64,000 nucleotides of DNA. Source: Acuticoccus mangrovi (GTDB lineage Bacteria > Pseudomonadota > Alphaproteobacteria > Rhizobiales > Amorphaceae). Position 1 is the stretch's first letter; every line of letters begins with the position of its first letter. The notes below the pieces were generated by a model. The model was not told the DNA's origin and did no database searches. It saw only the letters and a program-made list of their open reading frames with translations. Where the stretch lies: positions 1 through 64,000 of the forward strand of contig NZ_JAEKJA010000011.1 of the NCBI RefSeq assembly GCF_016411865.1. Reading direction: 5' to 3'. Positions 24,604 through 49,187 of the stretch are shown here, piece by piece. The translations under genes were made by a program, and so were the position numbers.

Positions 24604-24979
24604 GTAGCCTTGCGGCGAACCCTCCTATCGCTGCACGCCGGGCTTGTCCAGTGCGAGCCTGCCTCCCGCTGTCTCCGACGTGGCATGCTGCCGCACTTCA
24701 TCCCTGTGTACAGATGTGTGCGCGTCAAATAAAGGGGCGCGCTCGATCGGTCCGCCGACTGCCTCGACGGGGCCGTCGGCGAGTTCGTATACGGATTGAG
24801 CAGCGTTCGCGCCCGATGATGCCGCCGAATGACTTGAGAGTCACGCCGTCGTTAGGCATTCGATGGCACAAAACCGTGATCACAGCTATCAATTCAACCA
24901 CTTCGGCGAGACTGTCTTCCCTGCGGCAAGCTTTTGTGCAAAGGCTGAACGTCAGAAGAATACGAGAGGGAGTGTCCCA
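24604..24979. other. Non-coding stretch between tRNA-Thr and dctP
   Basis: It should hold the tRNA-Thr promoter on the minus strand and the TRAP operon promoter on the plus strand. An open frame runs from 24863 into dctP, but the strong ribosome site and signal peptide place the true start at 24980. I see no regulatory motif I can name. Confidence 0.4.
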
Positions 24980-25978
24980 GTGAAGGCTCTGATTTGCGCA
25001 ACTGCGCTCGCCCTGGCCGCCGCCACCCCGGCGCTTGCCGATTGTGACGACGGCGAGGTCGTCATCAAATTCAGCCACGTCGTCGCCGAAAAAGGCCACC
25101 CGAAGGGCGAGATGGCCGCCGCCCTCGCCGAGCGCATCAACGACGAGATGGACGGCAAGGCCTGCATGCAGGTGTTCCCCAACTCGCAGCTCTACGACGA
25201 CGACAAGGTGATGGAGGCCCTGCTCCTCGGCGACGTGCAGATCGCCGCCCCGTCGCTGTCGAAGTTCGGCGCCTACACCCGCAAGCTCGGGCTATTCGAC
25301 CTGCCCTTCCTTTTCCAGGATCTCGCGGCAGTCGATCGCTTCACCGAGAGCGATGCCGGCAAGAGCCTGCTCACCTCGATGCAGGACGTGGGCTACATAG
25401 GCCTCGGCTACATCAACAACGGCCTGAAGCAGTTCTCGGCCGACAAGCCGCTGCTCACCCCCTCGGACGCGAAGGGGTTGAAGTTCCGCGTCCAGACGTC
25501 GGACATCGCCCAGGCGATGATCGAGGCGCTCGGCGCCAACGCCCAGAAGCTCGCCTTCAACGAGGTGTACGGCGCGCTGCAGCAGGGCGTGGTGGACGGC
25601 CAGGAGAACACTTACACCAACATCTACACGCAAAAGTTCTTCGAAGTTCAGGACGGGATCACCGAGACCAACCACCAGATCCTGACCTACTTTGCCGTAA
25701 CCACCGACGAGTTCCTCGACAGCCTCGACGACGAGACGCGAGAGCAGTTCCTGTCGATCTTCAAGGCGGTGTCGGACGAATACAACGCCAAGTCCGCCCA
25801 GCTGAACGAAGAGGCCAAGCAGGCGATCATCGACGCCGGCGGTACCATCCGCACCCTCACGCCCGAGCAGCGTCAGCAGTGGGTGGACGCGATGAAGCCG
25901 GTGTGGGCCGAGTTCGAGGACGAGATCGGCAAGGACCTCATCGACGCGGCCGTCGCCGCCAACAACGGCGGCGCCTGA
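24980..25978 (+). CDS. dctP: TRAP transporter substrate-binding protein (DctP family)
   Basis: A 332-residue periplasmic protein that captures an organic acid for a TRAP importer. The GTG at 24980 is preferred because GAGAGGGAG lies just upstream and the product then starts directly with a signal peptide (VKALICATALALAAATPALA). The DctP core follows: IKFSHVVAEKGHPKG, the ligand-carboxylate Arg in LKFRVQTSD, and GVVDGQENTYTNIY. It is first in the dctPQM operon. The motif set fits C4-dicarboxylate or related acids, but exact ligand is unknown. Confidence 0.9.
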   Translation: MKALICATALALAAATPALADCDDGEVVIKFSHVVAEKGHPKGEMAAALAERINDEMDGKACMQVFPNSQLYDDDKVMEALLLGDVQIAAPSLSKFGAYTRKLGLFDLPFLFQDLAAVDRFTESDAGKSLLTSMQDVGYIGLGYINNGLKQFSADKPLLTPSDAKGLKFRVQTSDIAQAMIEALGANAQKLAFNEVYGALQQGVVDGQENTYTNIYTQKFFEVQDGITETNHQILTYFAVTTDEFLDSLDDETREQFLSIFKAVSDEYNAKSAQLNEEAKQAIIDAGGTIRTLTPEQRQQWVDAMKPVWAEFEDEIGKDLIDAAVAANNGGA

Positions 25979-26010
25979 TCGGCGACCGACACTTCCGGGT
26001 GAGCGGGGCC

Positions 26011-26030
26011 GGGCCGGCAAGGTCCGGCCC
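26011..26030 (+). terminator. Intercistronic hairpin between dctP and dctQ
   Basis: GGGCCGG (26011-26017) pairs with CCGGCCC (26024-26030), six-base loop, with further G/C pairs possible outside. No T run follows. It lies 32 bases after the dctP stop and 60 before dctQ, suited to partial termination or mRNA stabilisation that favours the binding protein. Confidence 0.5.
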
Positions 26031-26089
26031 CTTCCGCTTCATCGAGTGGCGCGCCGCCGCTGCGGCCGCCTCGCGTCGAAGGCCGCACG

Positions 26090-26779
26090 ATGTATCACAT
26101 TCTGATCGCCTACCCGCTCCTCACGCTCATCTGCTTCGTGGGGCTCTACTTCATCCTCGACCGGCTGGCCCCGCGCGCCATGGCGAGCTTCGAGGAGATC
26201 TTCATCGCCGTCATCCTCGCGCTGATGACGCTGGTCGCCTTCGTTCAGGTCGTCCTGCGCTACGGCTTCAACACCGGCATCACCGGAGCGCTGGAGCTCA
26301 ACCGCATCCTGTTCGCCTGGCTGATCCTCTTCGGCATGAGCTACGGGGTGCGCGTCGGCACCCATCTCGGCATCGACACCCTCATTCGCACCTTCCCGCG
26401 GCCGGTGTTTCGCGCCTTCGCCGTGTTCGGCGCCGCCGCGGCCCTGCTCTGGGCGGTGATCCTCATTTCGGGCGACTGGCTGACCCATCTCGGCGCGACC
26501 ACCCGCGGCGGCGGCGCCGTCGACTATTGGTGGCGCTTCTTCCGCGTCGGCACCGGGCTCGACGACCTGATGTACCCCTCCTTCATGCGCGAGTGGGCCG
26601 GGCAGGACCGCGTGCACCGCTGGGTCGCCTACCTCATCCTGCCCATCGGCCTCGGCCTCTTCGCCATGCGCACGCTTCAGGCTCTCGTCGAGATCGTCCA
26701 GGGCAAGCGTGACCTCATCATCGCGAGCCACGAGGCCGAAGACCTCGTTGCCGAAAACAAAGACGCCCTGAGGGACTAA
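26090..26779 (+). CDS. dctQ: TRAP transporter small permease (DctQ family)
   Basis: A 229-residue inner-membrane protein with about four helices (first at about 5-25, then 40-60, 80-95 and 105-130). FEEIFIAVILALMTLVAFVQVVLRY and ELNRILFAWLILFGMSYGVR are the family hallmarks. Between helices three and four there is an insert rich in Gly and Trp (residues 125-165) that makes it somewhat longer than most DctQ proteins. The ribosome site GAAGG is eight bases upstream of the ATG. Its stop overlaps the dctM start by one base. Confidence 0.88.
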   Translation: MYHILIAYPLLTLICFVGLYFILDRLAPRAMASFEEIFIAVILALMTLVAFVQVVLRYGFNTGITGALELNRILFAWLILFGMSYGVRVGTHLGIDTLIRTFPRPVFRAFAVFGAAAALLWAVILISGDWLTHLGATTRGGGAVDYWWRFFRVGTGLDDLMYPSFMREWAGQDRVHRWVAYLILPIGLGLFAMRTLQALVEIVQGKRDLIIASHEAEDLVAENKDALRD

Positions 26780-28380
26780 TGGAACCCATCATCCTCTTCG
26801 CGCTTGTTTTCTTCTTTCTGCTGACGGGCGTCCCGGTCGCGGTGTCGCTGGGCCTGTCGTCGCTCCTCCTCATCGCCTTCTTCTCCACCGACACCATCTC
26901 CTCGGTGGCGCTGCAGCTCTACACCGCCAGCCAGAACTACACGCTCCTCGCGATCCCCTACTTCATCCTCGCCTCGGCGTTCATGTCGACGGGCGGCGTG
27001 GCCCAGCGCATCATCCGCTTCGCCATCGCCACCATCGGCTCCTTCCGGGGCGGCCTCGCGATGGCCTCGGTGCTCGCCTGCATGCTGTTCGCGGCGCTGT
27101 CGGGCTCCTCGCCCGCGACGGTCGTCGCCATCGGCACCATCGCCATCGCCGGCATGCGGCAGGTGGGCTACTCGAAGGAGTTCGCCTCCGGCATCATCGC
27201 CAACGCCGGCACCCTCGGCATTCTCATCCCGCCGTCGATCGTGATGGTGGTCTACGCCGCCGCGACCGACGTCTCGGTGGGCCGCATGTTCCTCGCCGGC
27301 GTCATCCCCGGCATCGTCGCCGGCCTGATGCTGATGATCACCATCTTCATCATGGCGCGCGTCAAGAACCTGCCGAAGGGCGAGTGGCTCGGCTGGGGCG
27401 AATTCTTGCGCGCCGGCAAGGATGCGGCCTGGGGCCTCTTCCTCATCATCATCATCCTCGGCGGTATCTATGGCGGCGTCTTCACCCCGACCGAGGCGGC
27501 GGCGGTCGCGGCGGTCTACGCCTTCGTCATCGCCCTCTTCGTCTATCGCGACATGGGGCCGCTCAAGGGCAAGCGCTTCCTGCCGGAAGGTGCCTCGCCG
27601 GCGACCCGCACCGGCTTCTTCGCCTGGGTCTACGGCCTCGCCCTCTTCGTGGTCGTGCTGATCGTCACCTATTTCGTCTTCGGCGAAGGCGAGATCGCCG
27701 ACCGGACCATCCTGTCGGCGATCCTCGGCGCCGTGGGCGGGCTCGCCTACCTGCTGCGCCGCCAGGGGGCCGCGGGGGCGCCGGTCGCGCTCGCCGCGGG
27801 TCTTGCCGCCCTCGCGCGCAATCTCGCCCAGTCGCTGCTCTACGCGCCCCTCACCATCGTCCACCATGACACGCGCAAGGTGATGATCGACGCCGCCCGC
27901 ACCACGATCATGCTGATGTTCATCATCGTGAACGCGCTGCTCTTTGCGCACGTGCTCACCTCCGAGCGCATCCCGCAGGCGATCACCGAGTGGATGCTGA
28001 CCGCCGGCTTCGACTGGTTCACCTTCCTCATCGCGGTGAACGTGCTGCTGCTCATCGGCGGCCAGTTCATGGAGCCGTCCGGCCTCCTCCTCATCGTGGC
28101 GCCGGTGGTGTTTCCGATCGCGGTGGAGCTCGGCGTCGACCCGATCCACCTCGGCATCATCATGGTGGTGAACATGGAGATCGGCATGATCACCCCGCCG
28201 ATCGGGCTCAACCTCTTCGTGACCTCCGGCATCACCGGGATGAGCCTCGTGCAGGTGGTGCGCGCCGCCGCGCCCTTCGTGGCGGTGCTCTTCCTGTTCC
28301 TCATCCTCATCACCTACGTGCCGGTGATCTCCACTTTCCTGCCCACCACGCTGATGGGGCCGGAGATCGTCACCCGCTGA
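26779..28380 (+). CDS. dctM: TRAP transporter large permease (DctM family)
   Basis: A 533-residue inner-membrane transporter with about 12 helices. LLTGVPVAVSLGLSSLLLI opens it; SGSSPATVVAIGTIAIAGM and NAGTLGILIPPSIVMVVYA form the first inverted repeat, and GGQFMEPSGLLLIVAPVVFPIA and MITPPIGLNLFVTSGI the second. It is longer than the usual 425-440 residues because of an extra segment (about residues 265-365) with two or three predicted helices before the second repeat. It couples sodium flow to uptake of the DctP ligand. Overlap with dctQ is TAATG. Confidence 0.9.
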   Translation: MEPIILFALVFFFLLTGVPVAVSLGLSSLLLIAFFSTDTISSVALQLYTASQNYTLLAIPYFILASAFMSTGGVAQRIIRFAIATIGSFRGGLAMASVLACMLFAALSGSSPATVVAIGTIAIAGMRQVGYSKEFASGIIANAGTLGILIPPSIVMVVYAAATDVSVGRMFLAGVIPGIVAGLMLMITIFIMARVKNLPKGEWLGWGEFLRAGKDAAWGLFLIIIILGGIYGGVFTPTEAAAVAAVYAFVIALFVYRDMGPLKGKRFLPEGASPATRTGFFAWVYGLALFVVVLIVTYFVFGEGEIADRTILSAILGAVGGLAYLLRRQGAAGAPVALAAGLAALARNLAQSLLYAPLTIVHHDTRKVMIDAARTTIMLMFIIVNALLFAHVLTSERIPQAITEWMLTAGFDWFTFLIAVNVLLLIGGQFMEPSGLLLIVAPVVFPIAVELGVDPIHLGIIMVVNMEIGMITPPIGLNLFVTSGITGMSLVQVVRAAAPFVAVLFLFLILITYVPVISTFLPTTLMGPEIVTR

Positions 28381-28442: not shown

Positions 28443-29609
28443 TCAGCGCACGATCATCGCTTCGGGCAGCTCCTCGTAGTCATCGTCGTCGACCTCGGGC
28501 ATCGCCTTGATCTCGGCGCGCGTGAGGGTGGTGTTCAGCACCACGTCGTCGCCGGTGATGGTGAAGTCGTCGTAGGGGAAGGCGACGTCGCGGTCGCCGA
28601 TGCCGAGAAAGCCGCCCACCGACACGATCACCACCGGCTTGCCGGATGCCGGGTCGAGCATGACCTCGTCAATCTCGCCGATCTCCTCGCCGGCGCTGTT
28701 GAGGACGTCCTCGCCCTCGAGCTCGTCGACGCGGATCGAGTAGGACACGACGGCGTCCGGCGCCTCGGCGGTGACGCTGTCGGTGGTCGGAGCCGGCGTG
28801 GAGTTCGCCGCGACCATCGTGGAATCGGTCTGCGTGCCCGCGGCCTGCTCGTCCGCATCACCCGCCGCCAGCTCCACCTCCGGCGCCGCATCGTCGACGG
28901 CGACCTTTGGGCTCGCCTGCTCCACGTCGACGTCGAGCTCGGGCTGCTCGACCTGGACGTCGGGCTCGGCGGTCTCGACATCGACCTTGGGCTCGGCCGT
29001 CGCCACCTCGACGCCGGGCTTGCCCGGCTCCACCGTCACGTCGGGATCCGGCTGCGACACCGACACCTTGGCCTCAGGCTGCGACACGGTGACGGTGGGT
29101 TCGGGCTGCGTCACGCTGACCTTGGGTTCCGCCTCGGTCACCGTCACCTCGGGCTTGGGCTGCGACACCGCGACCTGCGGCTCCTCGCTCTTCACCGTCA
29201 CCTCGGGCTCGGGCTGGTTGACGCTCACCTTGGCCGGCGGCTGCGACACGGTCACCTCCGCCGCGGGCTGGGTCACAGTGATGGTGCCCTTGGGCGCATC
29301 CGCCGCGGCACCGCCCACCTCGACCTCGGCGAGCACCAGCTTGCCGTCGCCGTCGGTGTCGGCCGCCTCGTAGTCCGCGGCGAAGCGGGCCTTGGACGCC
29401 TCGTCGAGCGTGATGTTCGCCTCGGTGAGGCAGGCCCGATACTCGTCCATCGTCAGCGTGGAGTCGTGGTCGGCATCGAGATCGGCGAAGGTCTCGCCGG
29501 TCATGTCCGCGATGGCGCACTTTCCGAACTCCGACGGCGTCTGCGCCAGCGCCGGCGTTGCCACGAGAACCGCAGCGAGAGCGCTCCCCATCATCCACTG
29601 GGTCGTCAT
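28443..29609 (-). CDS. Exported EF-hand / nine-residue repeat / PRC-barrel protein (paralogue 1)
   Basis: A 388-residue protein of uncharacterised function. Layout: signal peptide to about residue 22 (LVATPALA); two EF-hand loops, D45-x-D47-x-D49 to E56 and D84-x-D86-x-D88 to E95; fifteen tandem copies of the nine-residue unit V-x-V-x-Q-P-x-P-x (110-244); a Ser/Thr/Ala linker; and a PRC-barrel at about 290-372 (VDELEGEDVLNSAGEEIG, VIVSVGGFLGIGDRDVAFPY). The C-terminus DDDYEELPEAMIVR resembles the ends of the two neighbouring paralogues. GGGGAA lies seven bases before the ATG. Calcium binding is expected from the EF-hands; the repeats may form an extended beta structure. It should act in the periplasm or at the cell surface. 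Confidence 0.85.
   Translation of the reverse strand: MTTQWMMGSALAAVLVATPALAQTPSEFGKCAIADMTGETFADLDADHDSTLTMDEYRACLTEANITLDEASKARFAADYEAADTDGDGKLVLAEVEVGGAAADAPKGTITVTQPAAEVTVSQPPAKVSVNQPEPEVTVKSEEPQVAVSQPKPEVTVTEAEPKVSVTQPEPTVTVSQPEAKVSVSQPDPDVTVEPGKPGVEVATAEPKVDVETAEPDVQVEQPELDVDVEQASPKVAVDDAAPEVELAAGDADEQAAGTQTDSTMVAANSTPAPTTDSVTAEAPDAVVSYSIRVDELEGEDVLNSAGEEIGEIDEVMLDPASGKPVVIVSVGGFLGIGDRDVAFPYDDFTITGDDVVLNTTLTRAEIKAMPEVDDDDYEELPEAMIVR
28878..29282 (-). repeat. Fifteen 27-bp coding repeats (V-x-V-x-Q-P-x-P-x)
   Basis: The coding sequence has a strict 27-base period that gives units such as VTVSQPPAK, VSVNQPEPE, VAVSQPKPE and VSVSQPDPD. The first and third Val are almost invariant; Q-P is often replaced by acidic residues toward the C-terminal end. 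Units differ by several bases, so this is an old repeat, not a recent slippage. Confidence 0.9.
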
Positions 29610-29616
29610 GTGTTGG

Positions 29617-29664
29617 TTCCCCATCATTGATCTACTTGGCGGCATTGCACCGCCCTATGGGGAA
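29617..29664 (-). promoter_or_regulatory. Nested inverted repeats upstream of PRC-barrel paralogue 1
   Basis: TTCCCCAT (29617-29624) and ATGGGGAA (29657-29664) enclose a second stem GGCGG (29638-29642) / CCGCC (29650-29654). On the transcribed strand the inner outer arm overlaps the ribosome site GGGGAA of the gene starting at 29609, so folding could hide it. Leader control is inference. Confidence 0.4.
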
Positions 29665-29783
29665 TCAATTCAAAGACGTGCCGACTGTTCCGTGGTTTTT
29701 CGCACGTTCTTCAGCTCATCCTCCGGGCGAACAACACGGGACCGACCTACGCCTTTACTCCAACGAACGAGACAACCAGATGC

Positions 29784-29817
29784 GAAAGCGGCCGACGATA
29801 GAGTGCCGGCCGCTTTC
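29784..29817 (-). terminator. Hairpin after PRC-barrel paralogue 2
   Basis: GAAAGCGGCCG (29784-29794) and CGGCCGCTTTC (29807-29817) form a perfect 11-bp stem with a 12-base loop, five bases after the stop of the gene starting at 31522. The A-T pairs at the base give a short T stretch, so it can serve as a terminator. Confidence 0.6.
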
Positions 29818-29821
29818 TTGT

Positions 29822-31522
29822 TTATTTCACCATCTCATCGGGGAGCGGCGCGTAGGCGTCTTCCTCGTACTCGGGACGGTTTTCCAGGGCGTCGTCGGTC
29901 TGAGCCGTGGTCAGTGTCGCGGCGTCGTCCGCGATGGAGAACTCCTCGTACGGCACCACGAGCAGCGTCTGATTGAGGCCCAGGAAGCCGCCGACGGCGA
30001 CGACCACCACCGGCGTCTGCGATGCCGGATCGAGCACCACGTCATCGATCTTGCCGAGCTTGTCGCCCTCGGCATTCACCACCGGAAGGCCGGTCAGTGC
30101 GTCACGATCGATCTCCACCGAGGGCGTCGTCTCGACCGCCGCGGGTGTCTCGGCACCGTCCGTGGAGGGGACCGCGGCGAGGGCGTCGGCCGCCTGCTCG
30201 GCGGTCCGGGCCGCCTCGATGGTCGGCGCAGGGGCCGCCGTCTCGGCCTCCCCGGCGGTGACCTCGCCCGTCGGCTCGGCCTCGCCGGTCATCTCTTCCG
30301 CCGTGGCGGCGTCGGGCACCGCCTCCTCGGCCTCGCCCGTCGCGGCCGTCTCGTCGGCGGGCTCGGTGCTGTCCGGCGTCGCCGTGGCCGTCGTGTCCGC
30401 AGCAGGCTCCGCCTCGTCGGCGGGGCTAGCGGCCTCTGCCGTCGCCTCGTCGCCAGCCGCGGCCGGCGACGTCTCGGGGGTGGTCGCGGCCGCGTCCGTC
30501 GCCGGCTCTTCGGCGGGGGCGGCGGCCTCGTTGGCTGTCTCCTCGGCCGGCGCCGCCTCGGGAGCGCTCGTCGTGGCGTCCGTGGTGGGCATCGCCTCTT
30601 CGGCGGGAGCGGCCGTTTCGCTCACCTCCTCGTCGGCGGAGGGCGCGACCTCGGGCGCAGTCGCCGCGGTGTCCGTCGCCGGCTCCGCCTCTTCGGCGGG
30701 AGCGGGAGCAATGGCCTCTTCCTCGCTCGGGGCGGCGGGTGTGTCGCCGGCGCTTGCCGGGGCGGCGTCGGAGGCCGTTTCCGCCTCCGATACGGGGCTG
30801 ATGGGCCCTGTCGGCGTCTCCGTATCCGCGGCCTCGGTCTCCGCCGGCATCGAAGCTTCTGCCGCCGTCTCCTCCGCCGGGGCGGCAGGCTCGGTCGCCT
30901 CGCCCGCGGTCGGCACGTCTGCAGCCGCTTCGTCCGTGGCAGCCTCGCCCGCAGTCGCCTCGTCCGTGGCAGCCTCGTCCGTCACCGCAACAGCGGCCGG
31001 CGCCTGCTCCACCTCGACCTTCGGGTCGGCCTGCTCGACCTCCACGTCGAGCTTGGGCGGGGTGACCTCAACCTGGGGCTCCGGCGAGGCAACGGACACC
31101 CGCGGCGGCTGCGGCTCGACCGTCACCACCGGGTCGGCCGGCACGACCTTCACCGTCGGGTCCGGCTGCGTCACCGACACCTGCGCGTCGGGCTGCTCCA
31201 CCGCCACCTTCGGCTCCGGCTGCTCCACGATCACCTCCGGATCGCGCAGCTCCACCTTCACGTCCGGCTTGGCGGGGGTCACCGTCACGTCCGGCTCGTG
31301 CTGGGTGACGGTCACCACCGGATCGTACTGCCGCACGGTGATCTTGGGAGCGGGCTGCTCGACCGTCACCGTCACCGCAGGCTCGAACACGCGCACCTTG
31401 GCTTCCGGCTGCTGCACGGTCACGTGGGTGCGATCCGGCGCCGCATCCTCGGTCGCCTGCTGGGCCAGCGCCGGCGTCGCCGCCACGAACGCCACCAGCG
31501 CCGTGCGAAGTATGAGGGTCAT
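29822..31522 (-). CDS. Exported nine-residue repeat / acidic low-complexity / PRC-barrel protein (paralogue 2)
   Basis: A 566-residue protein related to its two neighbours. Signal peptide MTLILRTALVAFVAATPALA; then, without any EF-hand, sixteen nine-residue units (residues 34-177: VTVQQPEAK, VTVEQPAPK, VAVEQPDAQ and so on); then about 270 residues almost entirely Ala, Glu, Thr, Pro, Ser and Asp, with recurring AEEA, ATDAA and APE words; then a PRC-barrel from about 460 (ALTGLPVVNAEGDKLGKIDDV, VVAVGGFLGLNQTLLVVPY). The tail EEDAYAPLPDEMVK matches paralogue ends. GAGAG lies about eight bases before the ATG. The acidic tract looks like a flexible spacer, as in surface-anchored proteins. No anchor or sorting motif is visible. 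Confidence 0.84.
   Translation of the reverse strand: MTLILRTALVAFVAATPALAQQATEDAAPDRTHVTVQQPEAKVRVFEPAVTVTVEQPAPKITVRQYDPVVTVTQHEPDVTVTPAKPDVKVELRDPEVIVEQPEPKVAVEQPDAQVSVTQPDPTVKVVPADPVVTVEPQPPRVSVASPEPQVEVTPPKLDVEVEQADPKVEVEQAPAAVAVTDEAATDEATAGEAATDEAAADVPTAGEATEPAAPAEETAAEASMPAETEAADTETPTGPISPVSEAETASDAAPASAGDTPAAPSEEEAIAPAPAEEAEPATDTAATAPEVAPSADEEVSETAAPAEEAMPTTDATTSAPEAAPAEETANEAAAPAEEPATDAAATTPETSPAAAGDEATAEAASPADEAEPAADTTATATPDSTEPADETAATGEAEEAVPDAATAEEMTGEAEPTGEVTAGEAETAAPAPTIEAARTAEQAADALAAVPSTDGAETPAAVETTPSVEIDRDALTGLPVVNAEGDKLGKIDDVVLDPASQTPVVVVAVGGFLGLNQTLLVVPYEEFSIADDAATLTTAQTDDALENRPEYEEDAYAPLPDEMVK
30992..31423 (-). repeat. Sixteen 27-bp coding repeats (V-x-V-x-Q-P-x-P-x)
   Basis: Sixteen units without interruption, each starting V/I-x-V and usually ending P-x. 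Unusual units include VRVFEPAVT, ITVRQYDPV and VKVELRDPE, so this copy is more diverged than the arrays on either side. Confidence 0.88.
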
Positions 31523-31586
31523 GGATATTCTCTCGTCATTCTCGCTGTTCTGAAAGCTGTCCCAGCCGGGCGCTCCGCCACGACGA

Positions 31587-31613
31587 AGAGCCGGAGCATA
31601 GGGCCCCGGCTCT
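31587..31613 (-). terminator. Hairpin after PRC-barrel paralogue 3
   Basis: AGAGCCGG (31587-31594) pairs with CCGGCTCT (31606-31613), 11-base loop, 23 bases after the stop of the gene starting at 32860. No T run; likely a weak terminator that separates paralogues 3 and 2. Confidence 0.45.
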
Positions 31614-31636
31614 CCGCCAGCACTCTGAGCAGAGCT

Positions 31637-32860
31637 TTAGCGCACCACCCGGTCCTCTGGCACCTCGACATAGGCGCTCTCGTCGTAGTCCGTCCGATCC
31701 TCCACCGTCTCCGCGGTGAGGTCGGTGTCGATCATGACGTGGTCGTCGGAGATCGACGCGCTCTCGTAGGGGAACACCACGTCGGTGTCGCCGATCCCCA
31801 GGAAGCCACCGGCCGACACGACGAGGAAGAGCTCGCCGCTCGACTGCTTCATCACGATGTCGGTGATCTTACCGACCTTCTCGCCGGCATCGTTGTAGGC
31901 AACCTCGCCCTCGAGCTCGTCGAACGGCACGCCCATCGCCACCGAGGAGGCCTCCACCGGGACGCCGGCGGCGCCGTCGTCGGTCGCCGTATTGGCCGCC
32001 ATCGCGATGGGCTCGTCGGCGTCGGCGCTCGACGTGGCGGCGGCCTCATCGCTCGCCTGCGGCGCAGCGTCGCTGACGCGCTCGATCACCACCTGCGGCT
32101 CACCCTGCTTCACCACGACGCGGGGCTCCTCGGTCTCGACCTCCACGTCGGCGTCCGCCTTCTCCACCGTCACCACCGGATCGGGCTGCTCAACCGACAC
32201 CTTCGGCTTCACCTGCTCGACGGTCACCTTGGGCTCGGCCTGCGTCACCTCGACCTTGGGGGGCGGCGCGTCGATCGCGACCTGCGGCGCGGGCTGATCC
32301 ACCGACACCGTCGGCTCGCCCTGCTCCACCTCCACGGTCGGCTCCGGCTGACGCACCGACACTTCCGGCTTCTTCTGCGTGACCTCGACCTTCGGCTTCG
32401 GCTGGTTCACCGCCACCTGCGGCTCCGGCTGCTCCACGGCGACCTTCGGATCGCCCTGGGTGACACGCACCTCCGGCGCGGGCTGGTCCACCTTCACGGC
32501 GGCGGGGGCCTCGGCCACCGTCACCTCCGCCGGCTCGGCGGCGTCGGCGGCCTCGGTGCCGGCCGCACCGTCGAGCTCGGCCACCACCAGGCGGTCGTCG
32601 TCGTCGATGTCGAGCCGCTCGAACTCGGCCAGCATCGCTGCGCGCCGGTCGTCCGGAATCTCGTTGGTGGCGAGACACTCCTCGTATTCGGCCAGCGTGA
32701 TCGTTCCGTCGCCGTCGAGATCGATGGTCTTTCGCGCCTCGGCGCGCACCGACCCATCCGGCATGTCGGCCAGCACGCACATCTCCACGTCCTGCGCCAG
32801 CGTGGGGGTCGCGGCCAGCAGAGCAGCCAGCGCGGCACCGCCCAGAATCGTGCGGGTCAT
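31637..32860 (-). CDS. Exported EF-hand / nine-residue repeat / PRC-barrel protein (paralogue 3)
   Basis: A 407-residue protein with the full architecture: signal peptide (LAALLAATPTLA, about residue 22), two EF-hand loops (D47-LDGDG to E58 and D84-IDDDD to E95), sixteen nine-residue units (113-256) plus a partial one, a short linker, and a PRC-barrel from about 310 (VPFDELEGEVAYNDAGEKVGKI, VVSAGGFLGIGDTDVVFPY). The tail is DESAYVEVPEDRVVR. A strong ribosome site GAGAGGG precedes the ATG. It has its own promoter that fits the general-stress EcfG consensus, 65 bases upstream. A calcium-responsive envelope protein made under stress is a reasonable inference, with no known homologue function to rely on. 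Confidence 0.86.
   Translation of the reverse strand: MTRTILGGAALAALLAATPTLAQDVEMCVLADMPDGSVRAEARKTIDLDGDGTITLAEYEECLATNEIPDDRRAAMLAEFERLDIDDDDRLVVAELDGAAGTEAADAAEPAEVTVAEAPAAVKVDQPAPEVRVTQGDPKVAVEQPEPQVAVNQPKPKVEVTQKKPEVSVRQPEPTVEVEQGEPTVSVDQPAPQVAIDAPPPKVEVTQAEPKVTVEQVKPKVSVEQPDPVVTVEKADADVEVETEEPRVVVKQGEPQVVIERVSDAAPQASDEAAATSSADADEPIAMAANTATDDGAAGVPVEASSVAMGVPFDELEGEVAYNDAGEKVGKITDIVMKQSSGELFLVVSAGGFLGIGDTDVVFPYESASISDDHVMIDTDLTAETVEDRTDYDESAYVEVPEDRVVR
32093..32524 (-). repeat. Sixteen 27-bp coding repeats (V-x-V-x-Q-P-x-P-x)
   Basis: Units such as VKVDQPAPE, VAVEQPEPQ, VAVNQPKPK and VSVEQPDPV follow one another without spacers. The most regular of the three arrays; variable positions alternate between acidic and basic residues. 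Confidence 0.9.
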
Positions 32861-32926: not shown

Positions 32927-32952
32927 AACGACCACTCGGGCGAAACTGTTCC
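32927..32952 (-). promoter_or_regulatory. EcfG-type general-stress promoter for PRC-barrel paralogue 3
   Basis: On the minus strand GGAAC (32952-32948) is followed after 17 bases by CGTT (32930-32927), the consensus spacing and sequence of promoters read by the alphaproteobacterial general-stress sigma factor EcfG. The start codon is 66 bases downstream. One match of this length can arise by chance; context in an intergenic gap supports it. Confidence 0.5.
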
Positions 32953-33156: not shown

Positions 33157-34116
33157 ATGAACAAGATTATGCTGGCGCTCGTCGCCGCAGCGGCCATGAC
33201 CGCGACCGGCGCGTCGGCGCAAGACAAGTTCATCACCATCGGCACCGGCGGCGTGACCGGGGTGTACTATCCGACCGGCGGCGCCATCTGCCGCCTGGTC
33301 AATCGCGGCCGCCGCGACCACGGCATCCGCTGCTCGGCCGAGTCCACCGGCGGTTCGGTCTACAACATCAACACCGTGCGGTCCGGCGAGCTCGACTTCG
33401 GCGTGGCCCAGTCCGACTGGCAGTATCACGCCTACCACGGCACCTCGAGCTTCGCCGATCAGGGGCCGTTCGAGAAGGAGCGCGCGGTGTTCTCCGTGCA
33501 CCCCGAGCCGTTCACCCTGCTCGCGAAGTCCGACTCGGGCATCACGTCCTTCGAGGACCTCAAGGGCAAGCGCGTCAACGTGGGCAACCCGGGCTCCGGC
33601 CAGCGCCTGACGATGGAGATCGTCATGGACGCCTTCGGCATCAGCATGGACGACTTCGCCCTCGCCACCGAGCTCAAGGGCTCCGAGATGGCCCAGGCCC
33701 TCTGCGACGGCAAGATCGACGCCATGATCTACACCGTCGGCCACCCTGCCGCCGCGATCCAGGAGGCGGTCAACTCCTGTGACGTCGACCTCATCGACGT
33801 CGACGGCCCGCCGATCGACAAGCTGATCGCCGAGAACCCCTACTACCGCGCCGCCGTCATCCCCGGCGGCATGTACAAGGGCAACGACGAGGACGTGCAC
33901 ACGTTCGGCGTCGGCGCCACCTTCATCACCTCCGCGGACGTGCCGGACGACGTCGTCTACGAGGTCGTGAAGGCCGTGTTCGACAACTTTGAGCAGTTTA
34001 AGCAGCTCCACCCCGCCTTCGCCAATCTGAAGGAGGAGGAGATGATCACCGACGGTCTCAGCGCCCCGCTGCACCCCGGCGCCGAGAAGTACTACAAGGA
34101 GCGCGGCTGGATGTAG
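33157..34116 (+). CDS. TAXI-family TRAP transporter substrate-binding protein
   Basis: A 319-residue periplasmic binding protein. The signal peptide ends GASAQ; the body begins [25 protein letters not shown], the TAXI-family signature. [25 protein letters not shown] and [23 protein letters not shown] continue the fold. Members bind glutamate, 2-oxoglutarate or similar ligands. The ATG at 33157 has GAGGGAG five bases upstream. The fused permease it needs is at 36331. It diverges from PRC-barrel paralogue 3. Confidence 0.92.
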
Positions 34117-47558: not shown

Positions 47559-49187
47559 TCAGAGCCCCAAGGCGCGCTGGGTGCGGGCGTCGAAGCCGTA
47601 GATGTCGGCAAAGCGCTCGATCCGGCCGGTCGCATCCACCGTGCGCGTGAAATAGGCGAGGTGCACCGGAATGTGCCGGCTGACGTTCAGCCATTTCTGA
47701 TTGCCGCCCACCATCCGCTTGATTCGCGAGCCGCTGAGGTCCGGATTCTCCGACAGCAACGCGTCGGCGAACGCGAACGGCTGGTCGACGCGCACGCATC
47801 CGTGGCTGAGCGCCCGGGTGGACCGGCCGAACAGGCTCGGGCTCGAGGTATCGTGGAGATAGACCGCGAACTCGTTGGGAAACAGGAACTTGACGTCGCC
47901 CAGCGCGTTCCCGCGGCCGGGCTTCTGGCGGATGCGCACGCGCCGCAGCGCGTCCTTGTTCCAGGCGATGGAGGCCGGGTTCACCACGCGTCCGTTGACC
48001 ACCGCCTCGTAGCCGCGGCGGGCGAAGTAGCCGGACGGATTGGCGGCGATCGCCCCGAGCATCTCGTTCGACGCAATGGAAAAGGGCACGTTCCAATAGG
48101 GGTTCACCACGATGTGCTCGATCTCGTCGGAGAAGATCGGCGTCGGGTTGCCGGGCGCGCCGACGATGACGCGACCGTCGTAGACCACCTTGCCGTCGGT
48201 GATCACCTGCACCCGGTAGGAGGGCACGTTGACGAACACGTAGTGCTCGCCGAGGTCGCGCGGCATCCAGCGCCAGCGCTCCATGTTGGAGATCAGCGCG
48301 GCGGTGGGCTCGTCCTCGATCCCCTCGTCGAGGAGGGCGATGGTGCGCGGACCGACGATGCCGTCGGCGGCGAGGCGATTGGCCCGCTGAAAGTCCTTCA
48401 CCGCGACGTCGAGCCCGACGTCGAACATCGTCGGGTCCGTGCCGCGCATCACCGTCACGCCGAGACGCGAGCGCAGCACCGCAACGCGCGGCTCCGACAC
48501 GCCGAGCTTGAGGTTCGGCCCCTTGCCGACCGCCGGCGGGGCCTCGTGGCCGGTGTCGACGATCGCCCGCAGCTTCGCCCGCAGCGCCTGATACTGGGGA
48601 TGCTGCGGATGCACGCTCTCCAGCACCGCGCCGATGTCGGCGACCTGCGACAGGCGCTCCAGGAAGCGCTCGCCGTCGAGCCGCGGCGGCGTCATCTTCA
48701 TGATGCGCGAGATCTTCGCGGGATCGACGCGCCCCGAATGGGCGTCGTTCGCGTAGCGCAGCGCCGCCTCGCTGAGCGAGACCTCCTCGGCCGCCTGCGA
48801 CAGGACGCCCGGCGTCGCGCGCGGCACGTAGTAGTCCGCCGGGACGAGCCCGTCGCCGGCGGCGGCCGCGAGCCGGGCGCGCAGCGCGGCCGCCCGCTCC
48901 TCGGTCCAGATCGGAGCGAAGTCGTGGGCCGCGTAGAAGGCCGCGACGGCGTTGGACACGTCCACCGCCACCTCGCGCTCGATGGCGCGCGGCAGCGGCA
49001 GTTCGGGCCCGACGTCGAGCGGCGCCGTCGCCGCGACGGCGGAGTGGCTCGCCACCGCGACCATCGACGTCGGAGCGAGGCGCGGGACGGGCACCTCGGC
49101 CCTTGCCGGCGGGGCGAGCGCAACGGCGCCCGCCAACGTCGCCCACGCCATCAACGCGCGCGTGCACGACGATTGCATCTGTGTCAT
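47559..49187 (-). CDS. L,D-transpeptidase (YcbB/LdtD-like)
   Basis: A 542-residue exported enzyme that forms 3-3 peptidoglycan cross-links. Signal peptide about residues 10-29 (ALMAWATLAGAVALAPPARA), an N-terminal scaffold domain (about 60-250), a peptidoglycan-binding motif (VAVKDFQRANRLAADGIVGPRT, about 270-300) and the YkuD catalytic domain with ALSHGCVRV, nucleophile Cys464. NPYWNVPFSIA and FLFPNEFAVYLHDT are typical of the LdtD/YcbB branch. The ATG at 49187 has GGAG eight bases upstream. It is divergent from the M3 peptidase gene. Confidence 0.9.
   Translation of the reverse strand: MTQMQSSCTRALMAWATLAGAVALAPPARAEVPVPRLAPTSMVAVASHSAVAATAPLDVGPELPLPRAIEREVAVDVSNAVAAFYAAHDFAPIWTEERAAALRARLAAAAGDGLVPADYYVPRATPGVLSQAAEEVSLSEAALRYANDAHSGRVDPAKISRIMKMTPPRLDGERFLERLSQVADIGAVLESVHPQHPQYQALRAKLRAIVDTGHEAPPAVGKGPNLKLGVSEPRVAVLRSRLGVTVMRGTDPTMFDVGLDVAVKDFQRANRLAADGIVGPRTIALLDEGIEDEPTAALISNMERWRWMPRDLGEHYVFVNVPSYRVQVITDGKVVYDGRVIVGAPGNPTPIFSDEIEHIVVNPYWNVPFSIASNEMLGAIAANPSGYFARRGYEAVVNGRVVNPASIAWNKDALRRVRIRQKPGRGNALGDVKFLFPNEFAVYLHDTSSPSLFGRSTRALSHGCVRVDQPFAFADALLSENPDLSGSRIKRMVGGNQKWLNVSRHIPVHLAYFTRTVDATGRIERFADIYGFDARTQRALGL

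Follow-up and report, generated by a model that had tools for sequence, protein, structure and literature searches.

A trio of nonapeptide-array PRC-barrel proteins in Acuticoccus mangrovi that look like stress-induced cell-envelope proteins

What might be the role of three neighboring genes of Acuticoccus mangrovi (NCBI taxonomy: Alphaproteobacteria; Hyphomicrobiales; Amorphaceae) whose products combine a signal-like N-terminus, an unbroken array of nine-residue units and a PRC barrel, two of them with a pair of EF-hands as well? The genes, here called A, B, and C, lie in a 64,000-nucleotide (nt) stretch at the start of contig NZ_JAEKJA010000011.1, the whole of which we call the window. Reading of the open reading frames (ORFs) together with sequence comparison bears out that they are adjacent paralogues on the minus strand, in the order A-B-C and at the coordinates given by a first-pass annotation of the same DNA (Table 1). 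Judged by their sequences, the three look like stress-induced cell-envelope proteins, unstudied so far. The best functional clue is a promoter motif of the alphaproteobacterial general stress response, which the first-pass annotation had missed.

Gene A is preceded, on its own strand and 92 nt before the start codon, by a perfect promoter motif of the EcfG type (GGAACAGTTTCGCCCGAGTGGTCGTT). A strict box, GGAAC-N16/17-CGTT, is found at −80 to −92 in all six Acuticoccus A genes examined while the surrounding DNA has diverged, and dinucleotide shuffles of the last 120 nt upstream of A recover a mean of only 0.015 of the six boxes (maximum, 1). In four of five relative loci (14 to 16 kb), A's box is the only GGAAC-N15-18-CGTT site, and it is one of two in the fifth (L041) as well as in the window, where the sole other GGAAC-N16/17-CGTT match lies at 47885 to 47909 on the plus strand. 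The genome also carries the corresponding switch, with the genes for EcfG, NepR, and PhyR side by side (Pfam PhyR, NepR) and the EcfG motif on both strands of the gap between phyR and nepR-ecfG. Given the promoter and the presence of ecfG in the genome, gene A probably belongs to the EcfG regulon. Five of six C genes show a looser GGAAC-N16/17-..TT form, the AATT-type box of C having been defined post hoc; the exception is the C gene of G005, which is also the one without an array.

The association of this box with PRC genes extends beyond the genus. Among 17 array-PRC genes from outside Acuticoccus, GGAAC-N16/17-NGTT occurs within 120 nt of the start in 6 (shuffle mean, 0.05; maximum, 1), and the array-PRC gene of G480 has a strict box at −162. 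Within the order, 6 of 10 signal-like PRC genes have a strict box within 250 nt (5 of the 15 loci were dropped, 2 without an ORF by the anchor and 3 without a signal-like start). In a set of 60 top-scoring PRC loci, of which 2 were dropped for short upstream DNA, the strict box lies within 250 nt upstream of 14 of 46 genes that are neither RimM nor PuhA versus 0 of 12 RimM/PuhA genes (Fisher, P = 0.028), with the classes assigned by eye from the N-termini after the box results were visible. The automatic classes, which were wrong for several proteins (RimM called "signal"), give 4/14 for signal, 10/43 for no signal, and 0/1 for RimM, and start codons are rough in both surveys. Short PRC proteins of about 120 to 140 aa without a signal peptide also often have a strict box 26 to 93 nt upstream (L165 to L224), and across Alphaproteobacteria PRC proteins that stand alone look like members of a general-stress family.

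PRC-barrel proteins are among the many alphaproteobacterial general-stress genes of unknown function. Measured dependence on the sigma factor is available for two of them in the parts of the published work that we consulted: Sphingomonas melonis #1478 ("PRC-barrel domain") changes by log2 −4.5 without ecfG (PMC6599016), and a value of 3.1 is given for Sinorhizobium meliloti SMb20522 upon RpoE2 overexpression (PMC6180224). Both have a GGAAC...GTT promoter and share the PRC domain with the trio, and the same parts of these sources report neither an array nor an EF-hand for them (PMC6599016, PMC6180224). An exported-type PRC gene on psymB of S. meliloti (L163, position 1028) has a strict box 191 nt upstream, which is not the published SMb20522 promoter.

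With respect to the protein layout, PF05239 (PRC barrel) scores above its curated cut-off in all three proteins, as the first-pass annotation had read it (Pfam, 44.8, 41.6, and 37.1 bits versus 21.2; E = 1.2e-11, 1.3e-10, and 3.1e-9), and the acidic tails are also as described there. AlphaFold2 (11 rows) models the PRC region of A (residues 311 to 400) at a block-mean predicted local distance difference test (pLDDT) score of 73 to 90, and the fold matches listed for A are PRC barrels (3htr, archaeal PRC heterodimers, RimM, and reaction-center H). The best match in both fold and sequence is 3htr, a Rhodopseudomonas palustris PRC-barrel protein with the same domain, aligned over the PRC part only (about 60 to 84 positions) and offering nothing on EF-hands or array. 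The archaeal pairs CdpB1/CdpB2 (8qzo) and PRC1/PRC2 (8onw) are distant (about 20% identity, with the repeat array not in the match), and their entry titles indicate that PRC barrels can form heterodimers. The earlier view that PRC barrels are normally cytosolic or photosynthetic modules does not hold, since signal-like PRC proteins recur in relatives, on plasmids, and elsewhere in this genome (C6:12252). The genome has two PF05239 loci beyond the trio, one RimM-like by sequence and the other an exported-type PRC protein that lacks an array and has a linker of low complexity. Other domain searches returned no OmpA domain (PF00691) in the trio at E ≤ 1 (Pfam), only weak NCBIfam matches far under the cut-offs (calcium-binding and RimM models), and no defense-system match at E ≤ 0.01 (PADLOC).

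Canonical 12-residue EF-hand loops occur in pairs in A (DLDGDGTITLAE and DIDDDDRLVVAE) and C (DADHDSTLTMDE and DTDGDGKLVLAE), and none is present in B on reading of the protein sequence, so that the claim of EF-hands in two of three proteins stands. A loop pattern of our own making (acidic or other oxygen ligands at positions 1, 3, and 5, with N, S, and G allowed at 5, and D/E at 12) finds two loops in each of the 12 A and C proteins of six genomes. The EF-hand Pfam scores of the window proteins (21.2 and 17.6 bits) are under the 25.4 cut-off, and a homologue in G135 reaches 34.6 bits versus a cut-off of 25. The EF pair of A (residues 41 to 90) is modeled at a block-mean pLDDT of 84 to 92 in the same AlphaFold2 run, and 11 of the 12 A and C proteins have a cysteine pair in this region. 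All three N-termini read as putative signal peptides of an ordinary kind, with a hydrophobic run and then A-L-A ahead of Q. The idea of a calcium-responsive system made up of the three proteins is not supported as it stands: the loops of A and C are canonical, but B has none. The proposed three size classes likewise lack support: A and C are similar in size (407 and 388 aa), and the extra length of B is linker only, a low-complexity stretch that varies from 21 to 405 aa across seven B orthologues.

The array proceeds in steps of nine residues, 17, 17, and 16 of them in A, B, and C, each V/I/L-x-V/I/L and unbroken. It is thus as uninterrupted as first reported, with 16 to 17 units rather than the 15 to 16 given there, and V-x-V-x-Q-P-x-P-x is its consensus, not a strict rule. 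Across the 272 units of the genus (91, 110, and 71 for A, B, and C), V or I occupies positions 1 and 3 in 98 to 99%, position 5 is Q in 76, 60, and 66%, position 6 is P in 39, 47, and 52%, and position 8 is P in 83, 73, and 76% (otherwise mostly A). With the array of A as query, the array of C is matched at E = 2.8e-24 and that of B at E = 1.1e-12, and the 5.46-Mb genome contains four array matches that reach E ≤ 0.01, each of them inside the trio, for which reasons the similarity among the three arrays is not due to chance. Orthologues agree at positions 1 and 3 in 182/192 (A), 282/320 (B), and 180/180 (C) comparisons, with codons differing in 95, 133, and 98 of these, and the other seven positions are identical in 391/672, 713/1120, and 301/630. 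The codon changes at these positions show that selection, rather than recent copying, retains the valines. We regard the array as a putative spacer under selection for V-x-V.

The A-B-C order is kept in six of eight Acuticoccus genomes (G000, G002, G003, G004, G005, and G007), a comparison that the first-pass annotation had called for. In G006, we find B together with an exported-type array-only protein (165 aa, L040:7597-8094, directly upstream of the B orthologue), with A and C not found there, and the trio is absent from G001 (89% complete). An array profile matched 14 of 397 genomes of the order, namely, 7 of 8 Acuticoccus and 7 others; the array proteins of these 7 all have a signal-like start, an array, and a PRC-like C-terminus on reading, with PRC above the Pfam cut-off in all 5 scanned. 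In the class survey, 9 of 385 genomes matched, of which four besides our own are real or likely (G135, G388, G177, and G111, the last cut by a contig end), while G051, G147, G188, and G420 were rejected on reading as other repeats or wrong frames. A repeat draw of 385 genomes used the same handles and is not independent (6 matches, G188 and G420 again spurious). Array-PRC proteins thus recur sparsely in Alphaproteobacteria. They are also found on plasmids of Paracoccus, Pelagibacterium, and Indioceanicola, where their annotation reads "PRC-barrel" and nothing more (four of the six records of this kind were inspected). The relative in G135 has the full layout of EF-hands, array, and PRC barrel. 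G007 encodes a 27-step array fused to an OmpA domain (L045:5488-7071; PF00691, E = 1.6e-14), so that the array behaves as a module with exchangeable partners.

A tree was built from 33 PRC domains, after 6 of the 39 rows had been dropped for lack of the anchor motif (G002_B, G004_B, G388_2, G007_OmpA, G006_arr, and Parac_marc). In it, A (98/94) and B (100/99) form single groups and C a weaker one (78/85), and the trio is separate (96/94, midpoint root) from 16 array-PRC rows, of which 15 come from other genera and one is the G006_L044 protein. This topology makes a duplication that preceded the split of the Acuticoccus species the most likely origin of the trio.

The first-pass annotation did not recognize the arrangement as characterized, and our searches of the open-access literature likewise found no paper on the combination of EF-hands, array, and PRC barrel. 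The part of one source that we saw describes EF-hands fused to other SH3-like domains, not PRC (PMC5906684). Among named families, the array bears a likeness to DUF6470 (PF20074), scoring above the 28.9-bit cut-off in P0001 (44.2), P0002 (29.0), and P0003 (51.6); of the 10 relatives that were scanned, 5 exceed the family cut-off as well. The matches are confined to repeat-like stretches of the profile and recur several times in one protein, the best covering positions 17 to 50, 15 to 59, and 3 to 90 of 178. Among 14 control genomes, DUF6470 is present in Bacillus subtilis only, in a protein that we take to be YviE. To our knowledge, neither a PRC barrel nor a signal peptide is part of the DUF6470 family, and the likeness may be a convergence of nonapeptides. 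A further parallel, by description, is offered by TonB-type periplasmic spacers, which are Pro-rich, charged, and extended and connect a binding domain to its anchor in the envelope; the array is likewise a Pro-rich spacer and differs in its strict V-x-V and acidic character. The parts (PRC barrel, EF-hand, and EcfG regulon) are known, and what seems new is their combination, which our literature searches did not turn up, with the array resembling DUF6470 only in its repeat. In our view, the nonapeptide array is a candidate for recognition as a separate repeat family, at present half masked by DUF6470.

The reading that we favor, tentatively and with slightly less than even confidence, is that the trio consists of EcfG-induced exported envelope tethers or scaffolds, not enzymes. 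PhyR would free EcfG from NepR and A would be transcribed, B would follow by read-through past the hairpin between them, and C would be transcribed from its own weaker site. Signal peptides would then carry the proteins through the inner membrane to the periplasm, where the PRC barrel would dock on a partner, be it a second PRC barrel or some component of the envelope, the EF-hands of A and C would bind calcium and steady the protein or engage a second partner, and the Val/Pro array would keep the PRC end and the EF-hand end apart. Placement in the envelope is suggested by the signal-like N-termini, the cysteine pair of the EF region, and the array-OmpA fusion, and use of the PRC barrel as a pairing module by the archaeal heterodimers 8onw and 8qzo among the fold matches. 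If exported PRC proteins are indeed envelope tethers, the trio gives a clear handle on the stress response beyond the cytoplasm, since both ends are recognizable, the spacer can be measured, and the promoter is conserved.

Several observations weigh against this proposal. The genome-wide motif count is barely above that of a reversed control (49 versus 41 sites), so a single site proves little and the weight rests on conservation. No EcfG box precedes any of the seven B genes, and B stands behind a hairpin. Outside the genus, the strict box lies within 120 nt in just 1 of the 17 array-PRC genes, and the 250 nt upstream contain no NGTT box at all in seven of them (G388_2, G388_3, G013, G670, G462, G469, and Parac_marc). 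The box is also found upstream of the short signal-less PRC proteins and therefore marks PRC genes, not export. The V-x-V conservation figures are partly circular because units were detected by V/I/L-x-V/I/L. Arrays can be shorter, with 12 units in G004_C and 13 in G005_A, and in G005_C (L039:6372-7658), which retains EF-hands and PRC barrel, an Ala/Glu/Pro-rich low-complexity stretch replaces the array altogether, indicating that a plain spacer can substitute at least once.

The alternative that survives best, though we consider it unlikely, is a structured rod. The array would then be regular beta structure, a stiff stalk of set length displaying EF-hands and PRC barrels, perhaps as an A-B-C hetero-oligomer, in the form of either a long ribbon of two antiparallel strands or an oligomeric beta-helix with one strand per unit per chain. 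The strict V-x-V and the near-fixed number of units would suit such a stalk: the counts are 17, 17, 17, 16, 13, and 17 in six A proteins, 17 in five and 16 in two B proteins, and 16, 16, 16, 12, 0, and 16 in six C proteins, that is, 16 to 17 in 5/6 A, 7/7 B, and, where an array is present, 4/5 C. Modeled alone (AlphaFold2, 25 rows), the B array has in the best of five models about one short strand per unit over the first ten units (residues 2-5, 9-14, 18-22, 27-31, 36-40, 54-58, 63-67, 72-76, 81-85, and 90-92; block means of 57 to 77 over residues 1 to 100), and we infer that the strand centers pair around residue 47 (sums of 94 to 94.5), as in a single long antiparallel hairpin. That model reaches only a pLDDT of 62.8 and a predicted template modeling score of 0.29, however, and the other four have mean pLDDT values of 41 to 50. 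In A, residues 101 to 309 are below 50 and the array, at about 33, is predicted without secondary structure. Low-confidence strands in B speak for the earlier suggestion of a beta-solenoid or extended rod and predicted disorder in A speaks against it, and the loss of the array in G005_C also argues against a rod.

Structural comparison does not favor a rod either. Foldseek gives 61 matches to the B-array model at E ≤ 10 and none at E ≤ 0.001, the best VIA-align match has a Z score of 3.3 (root mean square deviation, 4.5; 50 residues aligned), and most VIA-align matches are beta-hairpin stems of pore-forming toxins, which we take as uninformative; a search of solved structures with the array returned a sole match at E = 0.68. 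Two known repeat folds were considered and rejected. The RTX beta-roll is built on the nonapeptide GGxGxDxUx, whereas the consensus here is V-x-V-x-Q-P-x-P-x and not a glycine/aspartate nonapeptide. The T4 gp5-type triple beta-helix has the octapeptide VxGxxxxx, whereas the array has a period of 9, not 8, and V/I instead of glycine at position 3 in 96 to 99% of units (V, I, or L); it may nevertheless work similarly, as an oligomer.

Less likely again is that these are protective hydrophilic proteins, acidic and mostly unfolded, that soak up calcium or hold water within the envelope in osmotic or drying stress, with PRC barrel and EF-hands serving localization only; late embryogenesis abundant (LEA) proteins would be the comparison. 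The long low-complexity linkers, the disorder predicted for A, the general-stress promoter, and an array net charge of −3 to −30 across 18 trio-family arrays are in line with this, but selection holds V-x-V and the nine-residue step, which a mere hydrophilic coil would not need, and the arrays of the relatives G135, G013, and G656 have net charges of +3, 0, and 0.

A more elaborate joint reading, which we regard as improbable, would make A, B, and C a single hetero-oligomeric envelope device, whose arrays zip into a novel type of nonapeptide beta-rod of set length with PRC barrels paired at one end and calcium-loaded EF-hands at the other; the stress response would build this rod to brace or re-link the envelope, and elsewhere the mobile module would carry OmpA.

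Finally, a role outside the cell, at its surface or in a matrix, where the proteins would act as a calcium-dependent glue for cells or particles, is very improbable. Signal-like N-termini, EF-hands, and a repeat array might speak for it, along with the estuarine isolates that the genus Acuticoccus includes (PMC5747140). Against it, we noticed beside the genes neither a signal for type I secretion nor a partner for export across the outer membrane, the neighbors being tripartite ATP-independent periplasmic (TRAP) transporters, and the OmpA-domain relative in G007 points to the periplasm.

Table 1. Positions of the trio and of its associated features in the window
Feature	Position	Strand	Details
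Gene A (P0003)	31637..32860	−	407 aa; signal-like N-terminus, EF-hand pair, 17-unit array, linker, PRC barrel, acidic tail
A, EF-hand pair, residues 39-102	32555..32746	−	Loops at residues 47-58 and 84-95
A, nonapeptide array, 17 units, residues 113-265	32066..32524	−	Unit listing; predicted disordered, pLDDT about 33
A, PRC barrel	31721..31921	−	PF05239, E = 1.5e-9 (genome search), 3.1e-9 (Pfam); fold match 3htr
Gene B (P0002)	29822..31522	−	566 aa; signal-like N-terminus, 17-unit array, long A/E/P/T linker, PRC barrel; EF-hands absent
B, array, 17 units, residues 34-186	30965..31423	−	Unit listing; final unit degenerate
B, PRC barrel	29909..30106	−	PF05239, E = 2.5e-11 (genome search)
Gene C (P0001)	28443..29609	−	388 aa; signal-like N-terminus, EF-hand pair, 16-unit array, linker, PRC barrel
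C, EF-hand loops, residues 45-56 and 84-95	29325..29477	−	Loop-pattern search
C, array, 16 units, residues 110-253	28851..29282	−	Unit listing
C, PRC barrel	28530..28736	−	PF05239, E = 2.7e-12 (genome search)
EcfG-type promoter of gene A	32927..32952	−	GGAAC-N17-CGTT, 92 nt upstream of start codon
Possible weaker EcfG-type promoter of gene C	29667..29691	−	GGAAC-N16-AATT; pattern defined after sequences were seen
G+C-rich hairpin between A and B	31577..31621	−	−32.5 kcal/mol, without T run
G+C-rich hairpin between B and C	29784..29817	−	−24.5 kcal/mol

The start of C is probably 29609, which we prefer over 29645 on account of the signal-like N-terminus. A terminator scanner detected neither intergenic hairpin of the trio, and the same scan gave no sigma-70 promoters or classic terminators. 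The hairpin search, which has no shuffle control, counts Ts inside the stem, and is used lightly here, places a T run after A in four of six genomes (G000 and G004 being without one).

In the wider neighborhood, each of the six relative loci that were searched has a DctPQM TRAP operon right beside the trio (in G006, beside B) and convergent with it, with DctP only partly within the G006 locus; in the window, this operon occupies 24863 to 28380. Its constant position is informative on inheritance more than on function. On the other side of the trio, a divergent gene at 33157 to 34116 reads like a TAXI-type TRAP receptor.

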